Virus record (IMG/VR): IMGVR_UViG_3300027788_000001
Location: 1-32,309 of that record
From: a virus
DNA: 32,309 bases
Direction: 5' to 3' (one strand)
Part shown: positions 2,566 through 32,309 of the stretch, piece after piece
Layout of the letters: each line of letters starts with the position of its first letter
Position numbering within the stretch: the stretch's first letter is position 1
Notes under the pieces: model-generated
Databases searched by the model: none
Seen by the model: only the letters and a program-made list of their open reading frames with translations
What the model was told of the DNA's origin: nothing
Translations under genes and position numbers: made by a program

Positions 2566-2919
2566 GTAATACTTCAAAGCTCTACAAATAACCAAACTTT
2601 TAGTTTTATTCCTAGAGAATATACTGCTGGAACTACATATACTATAAAAATGAAAGATGAAAGTTCAAACTCTGAAGCCTTTTCAGCTACAGCTACAACT
2701 TTTACAGCTGTAGATTATTATTATCAGTATAGTGCTGCTTTTGTTTTAAACAATAAAACACTAAAAGAAAATACAATGTACATGTTAGAAATTAAAGACG
2801 GAAATAATGTTGTTTTTAAAGACAAAGTATTTTGCACAAATCAAAATGTAACAACTTACAGCGTGAATAAGAATGCTTATACAAGCAACACAACAGCTAA
2901 TGATTTTATAGTTTTATAA
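2563..2919 (+). CDS. Hypothetical small virion-operon protein
   Basis: 118 aa, the first gene of the portal unit. The sequence looks like an immunoglobulin-like beta sandwich: alternating polar and hydrophobic residues, many Thr/Ser/Asn/Tyr, with the segment TFSFIPREYTAGTTYTI near the start. It has no membrane segment or signal peptide. The start codon is part of the promoter motif, so the mRNA leader would be absent or very short. The stop overlaps the portal start (TAATG), suggesting coupled translation. Similar small genes occur next to portal genes in Flavobacteriia phages, but I know no function. Confidence 0.6.
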   Translation: MVILQSSTNNQTFSFIPREYTAGTTYTIKMKDESSNSEAFSATATTFTAVDYYYQYSAAFVLNNKTLKENTMYMLEIKDGNNVVFKDKVFCTNQNVTTYSVNKNAYTSNTTANDFIVL

Positions 2920-4688
2920 TGGCAAGAAATAACAACAAAAAAGAAGGCGGTCTTCACGTTATCAATTTATCTACTTATAACAGACCTGAAATATCTGAAG
3001 ATAAAAGAAAGGAATGGGTAGCTTATGGAACGGATAATAATTACTACCAATATCTGATTGAGCTTTTTACTAATAGCACAACTAATAACGCTATTATCGG
3101 AGGGGTTTCTTCAATGATATACGGTAAAGGATTAGATGCTTTAGATAGTTCAACAAAGACAGAAGAATATGCTGCAATGCGGTCAATATTTTCTAACGAT
3201 TGTTTAAGAAAGGTTTCTTTAGATTTAAAACTATTAGGAGAAGCAAGTTTTCAAGTTACATATCAAGACAAAAAAGTATATAAAGCAGAACATTTCCCAC
3301 GTCAAACATTACGAGCTGAAAAATGTAATGAAGAAGGAAAAATAGAAGCTTATTACTACCATCCAGATTGGGTAAATATTAAACCATCTGACAAGCCTAA
3401 GAGAATTGCTTCATTTGGATTTGGTAACGGTAAAGAACCTGAAGTTAAAATAGCTAAAAGATACATTTCAGGATATGATTATTATTGTCCTGTGGATTAC
3501 CAAGGGGGTCTTGCTTTTGCTGAACTCGAATCAGAGGTATCTGATTTTTTAATTAATGATGTACAGAATGGGTTCTCCGGAACGAAAATTTTAAATTTTA
3601 ATAACGGAATTCCTGACCAAGATCAACAGTTAAGTATTAAGAACGATGTAATGCGTAAGCTTACAGGGTCAAATGGCGAAAAGGTTATTATAGCATTTAA
3701 CAACAACGCTGAAAGCAAAACTACAATTGATGACGTTCCTTTAAATGACGCTCCTGCTCATTATGAGTACTTGTCTACTGAGTGTTCAAATAAGTTAATG
3801 GTAGCCCATAGAATTACTTCTCCTTTGCTTTTAGGAATAAGAACTGGTAACAACGGACTAGGAAATAACGCTGACGAAATTAAAACAGCATCCCTTCTAT
3901 TTAATAACGTTACTATAAGACCGTATCAAGACCTTTTAATAGACTGTATTGACGATATTCTAGCTTTTAATGGTATATCACTAAAATTATATTTCAAGAC
4001 CTTACAACCGCTTGAATTCATTGATACAGATAATGCAATAACAGACGAAGCAAGAGAAGAAGAAACTGGAGTAAAACTTTCTAAAGAAGAATCTTTTAAC
4101 GATGATGAAGCTTTTGATTTATTGAATGAATTAGGAGAAGAAGAAAACCTTGACGAATGGGAATTGGTAGATGAGCGTGAAGTAGATTATGAACAAGAAG
4201 AAGCATTAGATAAAATGATTGGTTTGGCTTCAACAGGTTCTGCAAGACCAAATGCTAAAAGTAAACAAGATGGAGAATCAGATGGTTTTAATTTTAAAGT
4301 CCGTTATCAATATGCACCTTTAAGAACTTCATCAAATAGCAGGGACTTTTGTGAAAAAATGGTTAGTGCTGCGAAAATATATAGAAAAGAAGATATTTTG
4401 CAAATGGGAGAGCAACCTGTCAATAAAGGATGGGGGCCAAAGGGTAAAACCGCTACCTATTCAATCTGGGAATTCAAAGGTGGTGGAGATTGTCATCATT
4501 TTTGGATGCGTAAGACGTATATGGCTAAAGGAGTTACTCCAGATGCTAAAAACCCAAGAGCAGAAGTAAGTGTAAACAAAGCTAAGAAAAAAGGATTTAA
4601 GCCTGAAAAGAATAAATCAAATGTAGCCAAGCGTCCTGCCGATATGGATTATGACGGTTTTTTACCAACTAATAAAAGATTTCAATAA
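2919..4688 (+). CDS. Portal protein with C-terminal MuF-like domain
   Basis: 589 aa. Residues 1 to about 420 form a phage portal of the type found in Bacteroidota phages: WVAYGTDNNYYQYL near the start, then SMIYGKGLDAL, SPLLLGIRTG and the stem/wing region ending in LYFKTLQPLEF. The portal is the dodecameric ring at the capsid vertex through which DNA passes and to which the tail attaches. After an acidic linker (about 430-470) comes a separate C-terminal domain with SNSRDFCEKM, YRKEDI and GGGDCHHFWMRKTYM; its Cys/His arrangement recalls the C-terminal part of Mu F-type head morphogenesis proteins. That resemblance is inference. It is translationally linked to neighbours on both sides by one- to four-base overlaps. 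Confidence 0.85.
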   Translation: MARNNNKKEGGLHVINLSTYNRPEISEDKRKEWVAYGTDNNYYQYLIELFTNSTTNNAIIGGVSSMIYGKGLDALDSSTKTEEYAAMRSIFSNDCLRKVSLDLKLLGEASFQVTYQDKKVYKAEHFPRQTLRAEKCNEEGKIEAYYYHPDWVNIKPSDKPKRIASFGFGNGKEPEVKIAKRYISGYDYYCPVDYQGGLAFAELESEVSDFLINDVQNGFSGTKILNFNNGIPDQDQQLSIKNDVMRKLTGSNGEKVIIAFNNNAESKTTIDDVPLNDAPAHYEYLSTECSNKLMVAHRITSPLLLGIRTGNNGLGNNADEIKTASLLFNNVTIRPYQDLLIDCIDDILAFNGISLKLYFKTLQPLEFIDTDNAITDEAREEETGVKLSKEESFNDDEAFDLLNELGEEENLDEWELVDEREVDYEQEEALDKMIGLASTGSARPNAKSKQDGESDGFNFKVRYQYAPLRTSSNSRDFCEKMVSAAKIYRKEDILQMGEQPVNKGWGPKGKTATYSIWEFKGGGDCHHFWMRKTYMAKGVTPDAKNPRAEVSVNKAKKKGFKPEKNKSNVAKRPADMDYDGFLPTNKRFQ

Positions 4689-5188: not shown

Positions 5189-5283
5189 AAAAAAGATATA
5201 AGCCAAAGCTTGAAAATGTATATAAGCTAAAAGGATATTTAAAAAGAATAAATAACAAAATTGCTAAAAAAGTATTGTATTAA
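5176..5283 (+). CDS. Small basic protein, 35 aa
   Basis: A 35-residue frame starting inside the end of the connector gene and ending one base before the start codon at 5285. It is very rich in Lys, Tyr and Leu (starts MGIIKKRYKPK), is probably one short amphipathic helix, and its last codons coincide with the promoter motif at 5273-5287. Small basic peptides at this place occur in related phages as I recall them, but the length is too short to be certain that it is translated. Confidence 0.4.
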   Translation: MGIIKKRYKPKLENVYKLKGYLKRINNKIAKKVLY

Positions 5284-5287
5284 TATG
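5254..5287 (+). promoter_or_regulatory. Late promoter motif, site 2
   Basis: AACAAAA (5254-5260), 12 bases, TATTGTATTAATAT (5273-5286), with ATG at 5285-5287. It lies inside the end of the small basic frame and in front of the fibre and lysis genes. Its N12 spacer ends in AAAAAAG like that of site 4. Promoter function is inferred from the five-fold recurrence. Confidence 0.7.
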
Positions 5288-10152: not shown

Positions 10153-10207
10153 TACATATATAAAATACTATTTAAAATTATTAAAATTGTTAAGTAAACA
10201 TAAGGTT

Positions 10208-10255
10208 TCTTTTACTTTTTTTTACTTTTTTTTAATTTTTTTACTTTTTTTTATT
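10208..10255. other. Phased T-tracts between core and arm sites
   Basis: Five runs of Ts are interrupted by a single A or AC/AA at 10214, 10224, 10234, 10243 and 10253, a near 10-base period. Helically phased A/T tracts produce intrinsic DNA bending. Position between core and right arm sites suggests a built-in bend for the integration complex. Confidence 0.55.
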
Positions 10256-10263
10256 GTTTTTAA

Positions 10264-10271
10264 TACATTTG
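10264..10271 (+). promoter_or_regulatory. Integrase promoter, -7 box
   Basis: TACATTTG fits the Bacteroidota -7 consensus TAnnTTTG. No good TTTG -33 box is visible at the usual distance; the region there is T-tract. The box ends three bases before the right arm repeats, so integrase bound at the arms could repress its own gene. Confidence 0.4.
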
Positions 10272-10273
10272 TA

Positions 10274-10294
10274 CCGTACCCAAAACCGTACCCA
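10274..10294. repeat. attP arm repeat pair, right
   Basis: CCGTACCCA at 10274-10282 and 10286-10294, the same 12-base period as the left pair. The last base of the second copy is directly before the integrase ATG at 10295. Confidence 0.75.
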
Positions 10295-11479
10295 ATGGGA
10301 TTTTTTATAAAAAGAACAAACGAAATATATTTTCATTATTGGATTAATGGCAATAGAAGCACATACAGTACTAAAATAAAAGTTGATAGGTCTGAATGGG
10401 ATTTAGCTATTCAAAGACCTAAAGCAAGACGTGGAGATATTGGTAAGGCAAATAAGAAAATAACCTTTGAACTTAATGAATACCAAAGGTTTTACGAAAA
10501 GCTAAAGTCAGATTATAAAGAAAGTCTTACAAAAGAAATAGTTAAAAATAAGCTTAACCAGCATTTCCAATTATCACAAATAGTTAAAACACTAACCTAT
10601 TCTGATTACTTTGATATATTTATAGAGCAAAAAAAAGAAAGCCAATCAGTTAAAAAAGATTCCTTACAAAAATACATCAGAATTCATGATGCGGTTTTAA
10701 ATTTAGAAAATAAAGAAAAAACTACTTACCATCTAAGGAGTTTTGATAAAGCTTTTTTTAGTAGGTTTATTAAACATTTAAGAGTAGATAAAGAAATTTC
10801 AGATAATACACTTAAAAGGAAAATAGGATATTTTAAATCGTTTTTTAACTGGTGCATAGAAAATGGATATCAAACAAATACAGCATTTAAGAAAGTATCT
10901 ATTAAAGGAAGGGAAACTTTTCATGTAAGCTTAAAAGATAAAGAAGTAGACACCCTAGTAGAACTTGAACTTGATAAAGATTTAGATTATTATAGAGACC
11001 TTTTTTTAATTGGTGTTTACTCAGGGCAAAGATATTCTGATTACTCAAGGCTTAATAGAAAATTTATAGATGGTAATAACATTGTAATAAGAGCAAAGAA
11101 AACAGGACAATTTTCTTATATACCATTAAATAAAAAACTAAAAAGTTTACTTGATAAATATGATTGGAATTTTAATCTTATAGCAAGTCAAAAGTTTAAT
11201 ATTAAAATTCAAAAAATATGTAAGGTTGCTGGTTTTGATGAAGTTATTCAAGTAGATAAGTTCTACGGCAACAAAAAAGTATCAAAGGATTTACCTAGGT
11301 GGAAACTAATAGGAAGTCATACAGCTCGTAGAACCTTTATAACCCTATCAGCTCAAAGAAACGTACCAAGGTCTTTAGTAATGCAAGCTACAGGCATTAA
11401 AAGCTATAAAACGCTTGAAAATTACACTAGATTAGATGTAGATAAGTTAAACCTAGAAATGTTTAAAGCTTGGGATTAG
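10295..11479 (+). CDS. int: Tyrosine recombinase (phage integrase)
   Basis: 394 aa from the ATG at 10295. A longer frame from 10187 was rejected because its extra 36 residues only translate the T-tracts. Residues 1-100 form an arm-binding domain, about 100-200 a SAM-like core-binding domain, and 215-394 the catalytic domain. Catalytic residues seen are Arg246 (SGQR), Lys268/269 before TG, His342 and Arg345 (SHTARR), and the nucleophile Tyr377 (ENYTR). The usual third-box His (TGH) is Ile368 here (TGIKS). The gene starts immediately after the right arm repeats, and its end overlaps the convergent repressor-like gene by 17 bases. It directs site-specific integration at the tRNA target. Confidence 0.9.
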   Translation: MGFFIKRTNEIYFHYWINGNRSTYSTKIKVDRSEWDLAIQRPKARRGDIGKANKKITFELNEYQRFYEKLKSDYKESLTKEIVKNKLNQHFQLSQIVKTLTYSDYFDIFIEQKKESQSVKKDSLQKYIRIHDAVLNLENKEKTTYHLRSFDKAFFSRFIKHLRVDKEISDNTLKRKIGYFKSFFNWCIENGYQTNTAFKKVSIKGRETFHVSLKDKEVDTLVELELDKDLDYYRDLFLIGVYSGQRYSDYSRLNRKFIDGNNIVIRAKKTGQFSYIPLNKKLKSLLDKYDWNFNLIASQKFNIKIQKICKVAGFDEVIQVDKFYGNKKVSKDLPRWKLIGSHTARRTFITLSAQRNVPRSLVMQATGIKSYKTLENYTRLDVDKLNLEMFKAWD

Positions 11480-12284
11480 CCTTTAATTCATTAATTGCTT
11501 TTGTTGTGTTTTTTTCTAATTCAACTATAATTTTTTCTGCTACTTTATTAGTATCTATACTTATTCTTTCAGTTCTTTGAATGTCTAGTTTTAATATAAA
11601 ATCTATGTGTTCCATTCTAGCATCATTGAATTCTTTAGTTCTTACTTTATGAAAATGTTCAACTTGAATATTAAGATTTTTAAGAAGTTCTTCTGATGCT
11701 ACTTCTAGAGTTTTTATAAGAATACGGTCTGTATTGCTACCAGCTTCTTTTAACGATTTAGCAGTTTCTTTAGGCAAAGTTTCAGTAATTTTTAATAGCG
11801 ATGAAATACCATTATTAACCTTTGTCTCCCATTCATCTAATTTTTTATTTAGTTGGTTGCTCATTTGCAACATTGAATTTTGTATTAACTGATTAGACTG
11901 TGCTTGAAGAACTAAAGCCTTGTCTATTCTAGTAGTAAGCTCATTTAATTGAAAATCATGATTTATCTGACTATTACTAATAGACTCAAAAGAAGCTGTC
12001 TTAGACTTAGCAATAGATAAAGCTGAAGCTGGCTGGTTTTGAATTCCTTTTACAATCATTTCTCCATACCCTAATACTACCCAATCATGATTTAATTGAG
12101 GGAATCTTCTAATTATTTTATCTAAAACTTTTTGACTAGGAGAAACTCCATCTTTTACTATTCTTCCCATTGTATTAGGAGAAGGCATGTCACATTGTTT
12201 GCCGAACTCGTTGATTGTCATGCCTGTTAAGTCTACAAATTCTAAAAGTCTTTTTGACTGAGGCGAAAAATTCACATTATTCAT
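11463..12284 (-). CDS. Repressor-like HTH protein with coiled-coil tail
   Basis: 273 aa on the minus strand, divergent from the early operon, the classic place of a phage repressor. Residues 8-75 form an XRE-type helix-turn-helix unit as in Bacteroidota regulators: LLEFVDLTGMTINEFGKQ, a recognition stretch MPSPNTMGRIV, then LNHDWVVLGYGEMI. The remainder (about 95-265) is almost entirely charged helix with coiled-coil character. No S24/LexA peptidase domain (Ser/Lys dyad) follows, so RecA-stimulated self-cleavage is unlikely. It probably maintains lysogeny by binding the switch region 12285-12444; how it is inactivated cannot be read from the sequence. Confidence 0.75.
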   Translation of the reverse strand: MNNVNFSPQSKRLLEFVDLTGMTINEFGKQCDMPSPNTMGRIVKDGVSPSQKVLDKIIRRFPQLNHDWVVLGYGEMIVKGIQNQPASALSIAKSKTASFESISNSQINHDFQLNELTTRIDKALVLQAQSNQLIQNSMLQMSNQLNKKLDEWETKVNNGISSLLKITETLPKETAKSLKEAGSNTDRILIKTLEVASEELLKNLNIQVEHFHKVRTKEFNDARMEHIDFILKLDIQRTERISIDTNKVAEKIIVELEKNTTKAINELKANPKL

Positions 12285-12444
12285 TTTTAAGTTTTTTATT
12301 AAATTTTTACAATTTTTACAATTTTTTTACTTTTTTATTTGTTTTTGTAAACTTATTGTATATATTTGTTGAAGAAATTATAAACTATTTAACTTGCAAA
12401 ATGCATAAATGTTTACAAAATCATTACTATAAAAATATAATAAA
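12285..12444. promoter_or_regulatory. Lysis-lysogeny switch region with operator-like repeats
   Basis: 160 bases between the repressor-like gene and the early operon. Three direct repeats AATTTTTAC / AATTTTTAC / AATTTTTTTAC (12302-12330) lie next to the repressor start. TTTTGTAAAC (12343-12352) and its exact inverse GTTTACAAAA (12411-12420) flank the early promoter and transcription start. They are plausible operators, not proven. A leftward -7 box of 7/8 fit (TAAGTTTA on the minus strand, 12348-12355) overlaps the first operator half. Confidence 0.55.
12338..12368 (+). promoter_or_regulatory. Early rightward promoter, host type
   Basis: TTTG (12338-12341), 19 bases, TATATTTG (12361-12368) matches the Bacteroidota housekeeping consensus TTTG / TAnnTTTG. 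It would start the early operon about 70 bases upstream of the ATG at 12445. The operator-like TTTTGTAAAC lies in its spacer. Confidence 0.65.
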
Positions 12445-14202: not shown

Positions 14203-14742
14203 ATGGCACAAGCAGCACTAACAGAAACAAAAAAAGTTTTAATGAAAAAAACTTTAGGAGTAGTTAAAGATACTATTACAAAATATTTTGATTTAGATAA
14301 CCTTTTTAAAAAAACTAGAAAAAGAAAATATATAGATGCTAGATTAATGTTTGTAAAATACTCTTATGAAAAAATTATAAATAAGTCTACCGGTAAAAAT
14401 TTATTTAAAAAATCTGAAATAGCCGCTTACATGAATTTAGACCATGCTACTATATTACATTCATTAAAAAAATTTGATAATTTATGTTTTTCAGATTTAG
14501 ATTATAGAAACGAATGGGAAAGTCTTTTAAAAAAAATAGACAAAAAAATTCTTTTAGCACATAAAGAGCTAGAGTTACAAGACATACTTATTAATTATAT
14601 CGAAATAAGTAATTCAGCAACTAAGACTAATCTACTTCAATATATCGTAAAAAGTCAACCTAGTTTAAAAGATATTTTTGAATATAGTTATGGCTTAGAT
14701 TTAATAATTAAAGAAGAAAATGTTAGTTCAACTATAAACTAA
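14203..14742 (+). CDS. DnaA domain IV-like replication protein
   Basis: 179 aa. Residues about 35-95 match the DNA-binding C-terminal domain of DnaA: RKRKYIDARLMFVKYSYEKI, then SEIAAYMNLDHATILHSLKKF, where DHATILH corresponds to the DnaA signature helix that reads DnaA boxes. The ATPase domain is absent. It lies directly upstream of the DUF1376-like replication protein and the iterons, so it may bind the phage origin or capture host DnaA sites. The C-terminal 80 residues are helical and may hold a partner. Family assignment is firm for the DNA-binding part, the role is inferred. Confidence 0.75.
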   Translation: MAQAALTETKKVLMKKTLGVVKDTITKYFDLDNLFKKTRKRKYIDARLMFVKYSYEKIINKSTGKNLFKKSEIAAYMNLDHATILHSLKKFDNLCFSDLDYRNEWESLLKKIDKKILLAHKELELQDILINYIEISNSATKTNLLQYIVKSQPSLKDIFEYSYGLDLIIKEENVSSTIN

Positions 14743-16174: not shown

Positions 16175-16546
16175 ATGAACAACAAACCAAACACTTTTAA
16201 CGACTGGACTGTAAGTACTGTCGGACAAACACAAACAATCGGAGCTAAAGGATTCCAAAAGCGTGAGCTAGTAATCACAGACAATGCAGAGAAGTACACA
16301 CAGTTTAGATTAATAGAAGCTATGCAAGACAAATGTATTGACTTAGATGGAATAGCTAAAGGAGACAAAGTAAATGTAGACGTATGGCCTGGAGGAAGAC
16401 AATGGACAAACCCAGAAGGAGTGGTTAAAACATTTAACTCCTACAGACTTGCGAAGATTGAGAAGATAGCTCATGACTGGGATGTAACAACAGCAGGAGC
16501 AGCTATAGATGCAGCGATGCCTAGCGATGATGATTTACCATTTTAA
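16175..16546 (+). CDS. SSB-like protein (DUF3127-like)
   Basis: 123 aa. The body is a predicted OB-type beta barrel (RELVITDNAEKYTQFRLIEA, GDKVNVDVWPGGRQW), as in the DUF3127 family of Bacteroidota, and the chain ends with DDDLPF. That acidic tip with a terminal Phe is the protein-interaction tail of bacterial single-stranded DNA-binding proteins. It probably coats single-stranded DNA during phage replication and recruits host repair and replication proteins. It stands in the replication operon after the initiator genes. Confidence 0.7.
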   Translation: MNNKPNTFNDWTVSTVGQTQTIGAKGFQKRELVITDNAEKYTQFRLIEAMQDKCIDLDGIAKGDKVNVDVWPGGRQWTNPEGVVKTFNSYRLAKIEKIAHDWDVTTAGAAIDAAMPSDDDLPF

Positions 16547-16548
16547 TT

Positions 16549-16998
16549 ATGCAGACAAAAGAAGAAAGAACAGCTTATCAAAAAAAATGGCATGCTGAAA
16601 ACAAAGAGAGACATGTAGCTTATCAAAAAAAATGGAACGCTGAAAACAAAGAGAGACGAGCAGCTTATGATAAAAAATATCGAGCTGAAAACCCAGAGAA
16701 AAAAGTAGCCTCTAATAAAAAATGGCATGCTGAAAACAAAGAGAGACATGTAGCTATTAATAAAAAATGGCGAGCTAAAAACTCAGAGAAAATAGCAGCT
16801 TGTAGTAGAAAAGCAACCAAAAAAAGCAGAGAAAATTTATCTGATTCTTATGTAAGCAAACGTTTTGCTCAACTAAAAAACTCTCCCTATACTGCAAAAG
16901 AGCTAAGGCAATTTCCTGATATTATTGAAACGCTTAGGCTGATTATGAAAATCAAAAGATTATGTATAATTAAAAATAAAGAAAATGAAAACAGTTAA
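16549..16998 (+). CDS. Tandem-repeat basic protein
   Basis: 149 aa. Residues 5-85 are about five tandem units of 16-17 residues of the form YxKKWxAENKER, which predict a long, highly charged helix. The repeats are also conserved at DNA level: a block of almost 40 bases at about 16583 recurs at about 16717. The C-terminal part (about 90-149) is non-repetitive, with LSDSYVSKRFAQL and LRQFPDIIETLRLIMKIKR. I have seen this combination in other phage early proteins, but no activity is known. The repeat number may vary between relatives. Confidence 0.55.
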   Translation: MQTKEERTAYQKKWHAENKERHVAYQKKWNAENKERRAAYDKKYRAENPEKKVASNKKWHAENKERHVAINKKWRAKNSEKIAACSRKATKKSRENLSDSYVSKRFAQLKNSPYTAKELRQFPDIIETLRLIMKIKRLCIIKNKENENS

Positions 16999-19651: not shown

Positions 19652-20014
19652 ATGGCAAAAGAAGACAATCTAAAGAGCTGGGAAAAAGGAGTTTCAGGTA
19701 ATCCAAAGGGTAGACCAAAGGGAGCATTAGGCAGAGCAAATATCGTTAAGAAATGGATGGAAGCTGCGAAAGATGTTAAGAACCCTATAAACGGTCTTAC
19801 AGAGCATTTAAGCCAAGAAGATATGCTAACCCTTGCAATGATAAGTAAAGGGCTTAAAGGAGACGTAGCAGCCTATAGGGCTTTAATGGATTCTCTTTAC
19901 GGTGCAGTAAAACAAACAATGGAATTAAGCCAAGCAGAACAACCAATATTTAAACAACTGGATATAGATGTTATTGAGTACGACAGCCCAGAAGAAGATA
20001 GCGAAACTACGTAG
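19652..20014 (+). CDS. Terminase small subunit-like (DUF5681-like)
   Basis: 120 aa. The N-terminus SWEKGVSGNPKGRPKGALGR is the KGRPKG-type opening of DUF5681 proteins found before large terminase genes, and the rest is helical with an acidic tail (YDSPEEDSETT). The small subunit binds phage DNA to start packaging. The gene overlaps the large subunit by 47 bases, which supports the pairing. The usual small-subunit HTH is not obvious. Confidence 0.65.
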   Translation: MAKEDNLKSWEKGVSGNPKGRPKGALGRANIVKKWMEAAKDVKNPINGLTEHLSQEDMLTLAMISKGLKGDVAAYRALMDSLYGAVKQTMELSQAEQPIFKQLDIDVIEYDSPEEDSETT

Positions 20015-21122
20015 ACGCATTAGAATCGTTCAGGGTGGCACTTCATCATCTAAAACGTTCTCTATATTGCCTTTGCTGATTAACTACGCTACAACGCATC
20101 CTAATAGCGAAATAAGCATTGTATCTGAATCAGTACCGCATTTAAAACGTGGTGTTATTCGAGACTTTAAAAAGATAATGCAATGGACTAACAACTGGAA
20201 AGATGAACAGTACAACCGTTCAGCAATGACCTATAATTTTTTTAATAATTCTTTTATTGAATTTTTTAGTTGTGATAACCCATCTAAATTAAGGGGTAGT
20301 AGAAGGCATATATTATTTATAAACGAATGTAATAATGTTGACTTTGAATCTTATCAGCAGTTAGCTATTCGTACTTCAAAATTTATCTATTTAGATTTTA
20401 ATCCAACAGGAGAATTCTGGGTTAATACAGAACTAGAAGGAGCAAAAGACACGCAAAAAGTAATCCTTACTTATTTAGATAATGAAGCTGCACCTAAAGC
20501 AGCTGTTCAAGAAATACTAAAGGCTAAAGCTAAAGCAGATTTAGGCAATAAGTTTTGGCTCAATTGGTATAATGTTTATGGTCGTGGTTTGCAGGGAAAA
20601 CTATCTGGTGCAATTTATGAGAACTGGGAACTTGGAAAGTTTCAAACCATAGGTAGAACTGTACTAGGTCAAGACTTTGGATTTAGTAACGACCCTTCTA
20701 CCCTACTTAAAACTAACATAGATAAAAAAAATAAGATTATCTACGTTCAAGAATGTTTCTATCTAACCAAACTAACAGCATCACAGTTAGGAGAGTTAAA
20801 CGCAAAGCACGCTGGCAGGGATTTAATTGTAGCTGACTCAGCAGACCCCAGATTAATAGATTCCCTTAAACAATCATGTAACATAGTCCCTGCAATTAAA
20901 GGTCAAGGTTCAATCGTATATGGTATTGCAATGATTCAAGACTATAAACTAATCATTGACCCTGAAAGCAAAAACCTAATTAATGAACTTAAAAACTACG
21001 TCTGGCTAGAAAAGAAAAGCCAAACACCCATAGCAAAATTTGACCATTTATTAGACGGATTAAGATATTCAGTATCGTATCAATTATCTAATCCAAATTC
21101 AGGAGAGTATCATATCTGGTAA
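19968..21122 (+). CDS. terL: Terminase large subunit
   Basis: 384 aa, the ATP-driven packaging motor with nuclease. Walker A-like QGGTSSSKT at 22-30, Walker B ILFINE at 115-120, a coupling region near residues 142-147 (LDFNPT), and nuclease acidic residues in GQDFGFS (Asp236), VADSADPR (Asp290) and the C-terminal KFDHLLDGLRYS (Asp359, Asp363). This is the typical PBSX/T4-like two-domain enzyme, slightly short at 384 aa but with all motifs. It cuts concatemeric DNA and pumps it through the portal; the circular, permuted sequence is compatible with headful packaging, which is inference. The start is inside the small subunit gene. Confidence 0.9.
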   Translation: MLLSTTAQKKIAKLRRRIRIVQGGTSSSKTFSILPLLINYATTHPNSEISIVSESVPHLKRGVIRDFKKIMQWTNNWKDEQYNRSAMTYNFFNNSFIEFFSCDNPSKLRGSRRHILFINECNNVDFESYQQLAIRTSKFIYLDFNPTGEFWVNTELEGAKDTQKVILTYLDNEAAPKAAVQEILKAKAKADLGNKFWLNWYNVYGRGLQGKLSGAIYENWELGKFQTIGRTVLGQDFGFSNDPSTLLKTNIDKKNKIIYVQECFYLTKLTASQLGELNAKHAGRDLIVADSADPRLIDSLKQSCNIVPAIKGQGSIVYGIAMIQDYKLIIDPESKNLINELKNYVWLEKKSQTPIAKFDHLLDGLRYSVSYQLSNPNSGEYHIW

Positions 21123-21132
21123 AAGAATTAAA

Positions 21133-21687
21133 ATGAAAGAAACAAATAAATTAGACTGGTTGAAGGTTATTTATAAAGACCATAAAGAATGGATAAATAT
21201 TGTTAAAGGTTTTGGCGAGAATGTATTTGCCGAAGACATTGTAATGGAAACTTATATTCGTATTTCTAAGTATGCAACTCCTGAAAACATAATACAAAAT
21301 AATAAAGCACATAGAGGCTATATGTATATTTCTCTGAGGTCTGTTTACTATCAGTATTATAATGTTAAAAAAAGAATAGACATAGTAAATATTGATGACT
21401 ACAAAGGTCTTCTTCAATTGCCAAACCAAACAAATTTAGAAGAACAAGAAGCTTTTCATTCTGTTTGTTTATTGATAGATGAAATAGCAGAAGATTGGTC
21501 ATGGTATGACCGAAAACTTTTTAAGGTCTATAGAGATAGTGGGCTGTCTATTCGTAAGATAGCAGCAGGAACTAAGATAAGTTGGGTTAGTGTATTTAAT
21601 ACAATAAAGAATTGTAAACAAGATGTAGAACAAAAGATAGGGGAAACCTATAAAAATTATAAAAACCGAGATTATGACAAAATTTAA
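21133..21687 (+). CDS. ECF-like sigma-70 family sigma factor
   Basis: 184 aa. Region 2 (about 8-75) has FAEDIVMETYIRISKY, the equivalent of the DxVQExFLRL helix that contacts core polymerase and melts the -10 region. Region 4 (about 125-165) has YDRKLFKVYRDSGLSIRKIA and a helix-turn-helix TKISWVSVFNTIKNC for the -35 element. The linker between them lacks region 3, as in ECF sigma factors. It lies at the end of the middle block, just upstream of the late tail operon, and its own gene has no late motif. It is the prime candidate to read the five AACAAAA / TATTGTATTA motifs; ECF -35 elements often contain AAC. Direct proof is lacking. Confidence 0.75.
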   Translation: MKETNKLDWLKVIYKDHKEWINIVKGFGENVFAEDIVMETYIRISKYATPENIIQNNKAHRGYMYISLRSVYYQYYNVKKRIDIVNIDDYKGLLQLPNQTNLEEQEAFHSVCLLIDEIAEDWSWYDRKLFKVYRDSGLSIRKIAAGTKISWVSVFNTIKNCKQDVEQKIGETYKNYKNRDYDKI

Positions 21688-22084
21688 AGGAGACAAAAGA
21701 AGTAAGGCTTACAAAGAGTGGAAGAAGAACCACGCTGAAGCAAGTAAAGGTTTAGGAGACCAAATAGAAAAGTTTACAAAAGCTACTGGTATAAGAAAGT
21801 TTGTAAAGTTTGTTGCTGGAGACGATTGTGGGTGCAGCGAACGTAAAAATAAATTAAATGCCTTATTTCCTTCTTATAAACCGAACTGCCTTACAGAAAA
21901 TGAGTACAACTATTTAAGTGAAAGGATTGGTAAACTAAAACAAGTAACAGGAGAAGAACAAAAGGCTTTATTGAATATCTATAATAGGGTTTTTAATGAC
22001 CGTAAAGTATTAACTGGATGTAATACGTGTTTCTTAAATGGGGTCTGGAAAAAACTTGAAATGATTTATAAGGAATATAAATAA
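21674..22084 (+). CDS. Conserved phage protein with Cys clusters
   Basis: 136 aa, overlapping the sigma gene by 14 bases. The order is a basic N-terminus, GLGDQIEKFTKATGI, a Cys cluster DDCGCSERKNKLNALFPSY, and a second CNTCFLNGVW, so four Cys (plus one in PNC) could bind one zinc. I recall this protein as common in Flavobacteriia phages right after the sigma-like gene. The linkage suggests it may act with the sigma factor or as a regulator, which is speculation. An intrinsic terminator follows at once. Confidence 0.6.
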   Translation: MTKFKGDKRSKAYKEWKKNHAEASKGLGDQIEKFTKATGIRKFVKFVAGDDCGCSERKNKLNALFPSYKPNCLTENEYNYLSERIGKLKQVTGEEQKALLNIYNRVFNDRKVLTGCNTCFLNGVWKKLEMIYKEYK

Positions 22085-22131: not shown

Positions 22132-22165
22132 TACAAAAACTAATTTTTTTTATTGTATTAGTATG
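22132..22165 (+). promoter_or_regulatory. Late promoter motif, site 3
   Basis: TACAAAA (22132-22138, one mismatch to AACAAAA), 12 bases, TATTGTATTAGTAT (22151-22164) with ATG at 22163-22165. It heads the tail operon 22163-30384 and follows a terminator. Confidence 0.75.
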
Positions 22166-31186: not shown

Positions 31187-31220
31187 AACAAAAACACTAA
31201 AAAAGTATTGTATTAATATG
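31187..31220 (+). promoter_or_regulatory. Late promoter motif, site 4
   Basis: AACAAAA (31187-31193), 12 bases, TATTGTATTAATAT (31206-31219) with the protease ATG at 31218-31220. It stands 247 bases after the strong terminator at 30908-30940. Its N12 spacer ends AAAAAAG as in site 2. Confidence 0.75.
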
Positions 31221-31979: not shown

Positions 31980-32013
31980 AACAAAACAATTCTTTGTTTA
32001 TTGTATTAATATA
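31980..32013 (+). promoter_or_regulatory. Late promoter motif, site 5
   Basis: AACAAAA (31980-31986), 12 bases, TATTGTATTAATAT (31999-32012), followed by A, not G, so no fused start codon. The scaffold-like ATG is ten bases further at 32024. It drives the scaffold/capsid unit that ends at the terminator 1824-1866. Confidence 0.75.
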
Positions 32014-32023
32014 AACCACACAC

Positions 32024-32309
32024 ATGAACGCAATAAATATGTTAAACAAAGTAAAAGAAGTTCTTGGGGTTGAATTATCCGAAGAAATTAAATTAGCTCA
32101 AGCTACATTAGAAAACGGGACTATCATTGAAGCAGAAGAATTTGCTGAAGGTAAAGAAGTTTTTATTGTAACTGAAGAGGACAAAGTAGCACTTCCAGTT
32201 GGAAGCTACAAAATGGAAGATGGTCAAGAACTGATTATTGAAGAAGAAGGAATTATTAAATCTATTGGAGAAGCTGTTGAAGAAGCTCCAGAAGAAGCTC
32301 CTGCAGAAG
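32024..32309 (+). CDS. Scaffold-like head protein, 5' part (continues at 1)
   Basis: First 95 codons of the 192-residue protein completed at 1-420. The opening MNAINMLNKVKEVLGVELSE is helical, followed by a small beta domain (ENGTIIEAEEFAEGKEVFIV) with a Gly-rich turn LPVGSYKMEDG. A second ATG at 32039 is possible, but the first has ten bases of leader after late motif site 5 and keeps the helix intact. A scaffolding or core role is inferred. Confidence 0.6.
   Translation, partial: MNAINMLNKVKEVLGVELSEEIKLAQATLENGTIIEAEEFAEGKEVFIVTEEDKVALPVGSYKMEDGQELIIEEEGIIKSIGEAVEEAPEEAPAE
32183..32309. repeat. Terminal direct repeat, copy 2 (circle closure)
   Basis: Second copy of the 127-base sequence found at 1-127. 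It lies inside the scaffold-like gene beginning at 32024, which continues at the window start. Confidence 0.9.

Follow-up and report, generated by a model that had tools for sequence, protein, structure and literature searches.

The 184-residue protein encoded at 21133–21687 (+ strand, ATG start) is a divergent two-domain ECF-type sigma factor, which very probably directs the host RNA polymerase to five late promoters in the same genome, from which the late mRNAs would be transcribed without leaders. The window (the whole 32,309-base stretch analysed) carries a 127-base exact terminal repeat, and is therefore apparently one complete circularised phage genome. A tyrosine integrase (10187–11479) is followed by replication and middle genes and then by terL (19968–21122), directly ahead of the sigma ORF; a Cys-rich 136-aa gene (21674–22084, + strand) overlaps the end of the sigma gene, and the head and tail genes lie downstream of it. 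The sigma gene thus sits where the original prediction placed it, after terL and ahead of the first late site (22132). The larger proposal made there, that the predicted sigma and a late motif form a self-contained late switch, is supported by the co-occurrence of the two and by sigma and motif changing together between lineages.

The presence of ECF-type sigma regions 2 and 4 in this frame, proposed from the sequence at the outset, was borne out by NCBIfam profiles, homologues, and AF2/Foldseek comparisons, all of which agree. Matches to TIGR02985 (E = 3e-5) and TIGR02937 (E = 6e-4) cover residues ~27–168, corresponding to regions 2 and 4, and a search of Pfam returned only UPF0122, at 0.02, and no sigma family. 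Homologues in related phages score better (down to 2.9e-14 for TIGR02985 and 5.6e-11 for TIGR02937). The window sigma falls far below the curated cut-offs of both profiles (19.5 versus 42.9 bits for TIGR02937; 24.3 versus 126.4 bits for TIGR02985), and the best relative, G004, nearly attains that of TIGR02937 (42.3 versus 42.9 bits); such cut-offs serve naming rather than structure, and by profile the window protein is a divergent ECF member. An AlphaFold (AF2) model built from a 20-sequence alignment (mean pLDDT 74, pTM 0.41) comprises two helical domains, with low inter-domain confidence. Foldseek comparison of this model with the PDB placed ECF sigmas at the top (6dv9 sigma-L, 4.6e-5; 6jbq sigma-E, 7e-4; also sigma-H), and the best 30 matches are, going by their descriptions, all sigma factors or complexes containing one. 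As in the ECF architecture, region 2 is joined to region 4 by a linker, with no region 1.1 or 3 (profile residues 29–165; AF2). Profile coverage and the alignment place region 2, the expected –10 reader, at approximately residues 29–84 (21217–21384, + strand), while AF2 helices and the alignment place region 4, the expected –35 reader, at approximately residues 119–166 (21487–21630, + strand), with a putative recognition helix at ~I149–K162 (AF2 helices 140–147 and 151–169, and the alignment). A scan for the sigma retrieved at least 556 relatives (stretches), and bacterial genomes scanned with the alignment gave 3 weak proteobacterial matches.

Five copies of the motif WACAAAA-N12-TATTGTA are present in the window, all on the + (late) strand (2532, 5254, 22132, 31187 and 31980), compared with 0 copies in 100 shuffles. 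Each copy heads a late gene block, with no further copy anywhere in the window. At four of the five sites, the ORF that follows begins with the ATG located 31 bases past the first base of the motif; the original prediction had missed this inclusion of the start codon in the site. The predicted late promoters with fused start codons lie at 22132–22165 (TACAAAA-N12-TATTGTATTAGTATG, gene 22163), 31187–31220 (gene 31218, for which ortholog sites were also seen), 2532–2565 (gene 2563), and 5254–5287, where the fused codon (5285) opens a 34-aa ORF heading the tail operon. At the remaining predicted promoter (31980–32026), the start codon lies 13 nt further on (32024), in a gene that crosses the circle junction. 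The first late site, at 22132, has a –35 of TACAAAA type rather than AACAAAA type in nearly all alpha relatives (the window's class, described below), as if this one promoter had been kept distinct.

The distance of 16 bases between AACAAAA and GTAT, on which the proposed promoter geometry had been built, is correct; GTAT itself is unlikely to be the –10 element, because transcription starting ~12 nt past it would begin beyond the fused ATG and leave it untranscribed. Judging from position, TATTGT, spanning –12 to –7 relative to the ATG, probably serves as the –10 box. A gap of 16 bases separates it from the AAC of the –35 box, so that the four AACAAAA sites read AAC-N16-TATTGT, a feature of ECF promoters, and class-specific boxes occur at matching positions in relatives: the position homologous to TATTGT is occupied by CGATAT in gamma phages and by CGTTAA in most sites of the cultured phage P12024S, again at –12 to –7. 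Given TATTGT at this distance and an ATG within the site, we infer that the late mRNAs are leaderless. The predicted absence of leaders contrasts with the hosts, where leaderless mRNAs are rare, accounting for 5.5% in Flavobacterium psychrophilum (PMC9723704), and where leaders longer than 10 nt are found on 87% of F. johnsoniae mRNAs (PMC6847099).

An exact-motif scan of IMG/VR yielded 96 sites in 89 stretches, or 59 distinct copies with flank. Each of the 59 is followed closely by an ORF start, and in 56 the ATG is fused at an identical position; most of the IMG/VR sites stand ahead of homologues of a small, recurring set of late genes. The expected co-occurrence was found, in that the sigma is present in 14/14 of the motif-bearing records of ≥25 kb that were searched, and it is encoded by 33/34 near-complete relatives. 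The exception (G042, 24.6 kb) breaks off within the interval that holds the sigma in its relatives, with ~5 kb missing. We therefore rejected it as a motif-bearing phage without the sigma, and the other sigma-less short records are fragments. Taken alone, such co-occurrence is weak evidence, because all of the records are related phages.

Stronger evidence is provided by co-divergence, evaluated from class counts, identities, and trees after comparing the regions that precede four to five orthologous late genes across sigma classes. Alpha phages, the window type, combine the region 4 helix ISWVS.. with the motif [A/T]ACAAA..TATTGTA; beta (G004) combines ISSK.. with ACACTTT..TTGTACATA; gamma (G005/G006) combines ISYYS.. 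with CAAAAT..CGATATA; delta (G056–G058) combines ISLIS.. with ACAATTT..TATTA and a leader, the ATG being ~9–14 nt beyond the expected start; and zeta, represented by P12024S gp33, has AACAAA..CGTTA. Delta is thus not leaderless, and its motif is weak in de novo alignment. For epsilon (G051), with helix ISSSS.., the motif ACAAAA..TTAATTA is tentative, being drawn from one near-complete genome and partly aligned by eye, and a scan with this pattern gave two late sites together with two unexplained ones. The class-by-motif counts are near-diagonal for alpha, beta, gamma, delta, and zeta, with 4.00 alpha motifs per alpha genome, 4.00 gamma motifs per gamma genome, 3.00 for beta (one near-complete genome), and 6.00 for zeta; beta, gamma, epsilon, and zeta each have an alpha motif count of 0. 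When late upstream regions were aligned de novo, genome by genome, the boxes emerged above shuffles in most genomes; the class motif was not clear for G025, for G057, or for parts of G056/G058. G063, whose sigma falls inside the alpha tree, carries TATTATA at 4/4 sites together with an altered region 2.

The contrast between the sigma and its neighbours is pronounced. The TerL of G005 (gamma) is 77% identical to that of alpha G019, yet the sigmas share 38%; against alpha G062, the G005 MCP is 81% and the gene-25432 product 91% identical; and for G004 (beta) versus G035, TerL identity is 79% and sigma identity 41%. In trees, the beta and gamma TerL are nested inside the alpha phages (support 100/97), and the gamma MCP is sister to that of alpha G062 (support 100/100). 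The beta and gamma sigmas are nevertheless ~40% identical to any alpha sigma and are accompanied by promoters of their own class; the position of individual sigma rows is uncertain owing to long branches, but this identity contrast is unaffected. With TerL and MCP 77–81% identical and the sigma at ~40%, the motif tracks the sigma, not the neighbouring genes. Our broader reading, which we hold to be reasonably likely, is of a large family of small marine Bacteroidota phages with its own ECF sigma and leaderless late operons transcribed from start-codon-fused promoters, in which the sigma–promoter pair has been re-coded several times (TATTGT, CGATAT, CGTTAA, TGTACA, and others) while structural genes were freely exchanged. 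If so, these phages would hold a natural set of orthogonal sigma–promoter pairs, and the re-coding may form a barrier to productive recombination between phage lineages.

Co-divergence also bears on whether the motif could instead be a promoter that the host reads with its primary sigma or with an ECF sigma of its own, leaving another role to the phage protein. The AT-richness and promoter-like spacing of the motif would suit such an origin, as would the resemblance of the CGT-box ECF motif of F. psychrophilum (PMC9723704) to the zeta CGTTAA. However, a change in the phage's own sigma is matched by a change of motif at all sites of that phage, among phages with closely related structural genes, and none of the 201 regions examined upstream of late genes contains the host sigma-A consensus (TAnnTTTG with a –33 box). 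On this count we rejected host sigma-A promoters as an account of the late sites, and we regard a host reader of either kind as improbable.

It is similarly doubtful that another conserved phage protein, either the Cys-rich product of 21674 or the DnaA-C-like product of 14203, reads the motif or is needed together with the sigma. Both genes are about as widely conserved as the sigma (33/34 and 32/34 near-complete relatives, respectively), and 21674, which is conserved next to the sigma gene, overlaps it, but a pair of boxes placed –31 and –12 relative to the start is sigma geometry. Moreover, P12024S gp35, an apparent 21674 homologue, is preceded by a late-type site of its own and lies apart from the sigma, with gp34 between them, so that gp35 looks like a target. 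The Cys-rich protein could possibly be a partner, co-factor, or anti-sigma. A third reading, in which the conserved block is an A-rich, Kozak-like translation signal and not a promoter, would explain why the ATG is usually fused and agrees with the Kozak-like rule known in Flavobacterium (PMC6847099), which the A at –3 ahead of the ATG fits, but it was rejected as a sole explanation and is very improbable, as a second box lies at a fixed distance 31 nt upstream, the block persists at sites whose ATG lies another 13 nt away (window 31980, G041), the two delta boxes hold their spacing while the ATG shifts downstream, and the block varies by lineage.

In the transcription scheme that we favour, the phage sigma would be made from an early/middle transcript started by host sigma-A, and would then bind the host core RNA polymerase and direct it to the five late promoters. 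Region 4 would read the –35 box AACAAA(A) at approximately –31 and region 2 the –10 box TATTGT at –12 to –7, and the A of the embedded ATG, or a base beside it, would be the transcription start. The presumed order in time, from host sigma-A to phage sigma to late operons, is matched by a host-type promoter (TTG-N19-TATATTTG, 12339–12368, + strand, by the consensus of PMC9723704) upstream of the early operon and by the lack of any such promoter at late regions. In the epsilon phage, a host-type promoter stands directly ahead of the sigma gene. In P12024S (L334:5123-5412 and 2750-3031), late sites and leftward genes are arranged back to back; the DNA upstream of those genes contains host-like TATATTTG/TGTATATTTG boxes, so that promoters of the host and phage types overlap there, one on each strand.

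That a phage ECF sigma can drive phage promoters is not new, being known from phiEco32 and 7-11 (PMC4331800, PMC7881722), where the sigma likewise shifts the host polymerase from host-type early promoters to middle/late phage promoters. The window shows the corresponding sequence features, a late motif only at late genes and the host-type promoter at 12339 for the early operon. Several features differ: the large podophages phiEco32 and 7-11 infect Enterobacteria (77 kb in their relative SU10), whereas the genomes here are ~30 kb with presumed Bacteroidota hosts; the former possess an anti-sigma/host shut-off protein, while no anti-sigma candidate was identified in the phages studied here; and start codons fused to promoters and several co-diverged specificities set the latter apart. 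No homology to the phiEco32 sigma emerged from a tblastn search with the window sigma, which covered 50,697 phage records and returned nothing at E ≤ 0.01, a result that rules out close homology only. Bacteroidota host ECF sigmas (TIGR02985) share the two-domain architecture; the window protein scores 24 bits on their profile against the 126-bit cut-off, and the F. psychrophilum SM6 promoter class differs in driving host genes, with an anti-sigma/ECF pair among its targets.

A cultured counterpart is the Nonlabens/Persicivirga phage P12024S/L (Inhavirus), the link to which was found through capsid and tail proteins only. Its gp33, placed just before terL, aligns with the window sigma family (hhalign E = 1e-9) and is an ECF sigma by NCBIfam (5.7e-8); its record reads "hypothetical protein containing Sigma-70 region 2" and gives no promoter or late role. 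The late genes of P12024S carry fused AACAAA-N14-CGTTAA-N6-ATG sites, five of which match the pattern exactly, and so differ from the window in the –10 box. Having its own version of sigma and motif, this phage opens a test now.

Little has been written on how Bacteroidota phages control their late genes, and full-text searches of open-licence papers found no account of it, nor any description of this sigma family in Bacteroidota phages, of promoter–start codon fusion, or of repeated joint change of sigma and promoter. One gene-plus-motif pair would predict where late transcription occurs in many uncultured phages, given the number of sigma relatives (≥556). As promoters of the same genes have changed to match the sigma in several lineages, the question of which sigma residues set specificity becomes directly testable. 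Bacteroidota promoters are atypical, and the sigma–promoter pair could provide an orthogonal expression system for this phylum.

Further features of the window concern its replication and lifestyle. The DnaA-C-terminal-like protein, encoded at 14203–14742, is possibly a replication initiator. The integrase and a divergently transcribed ORF (11463–12284) suggest a temperate phage; their homologues occur in only 3/34 near-complete genomes, and the sigma switch is not tied to lysogeny. Finally, a 149-aa ORF at 16549–16998 consists of ~15-residue repeats, with a 45-base tandem repeat at 16515–16812, and is present in few relatives.
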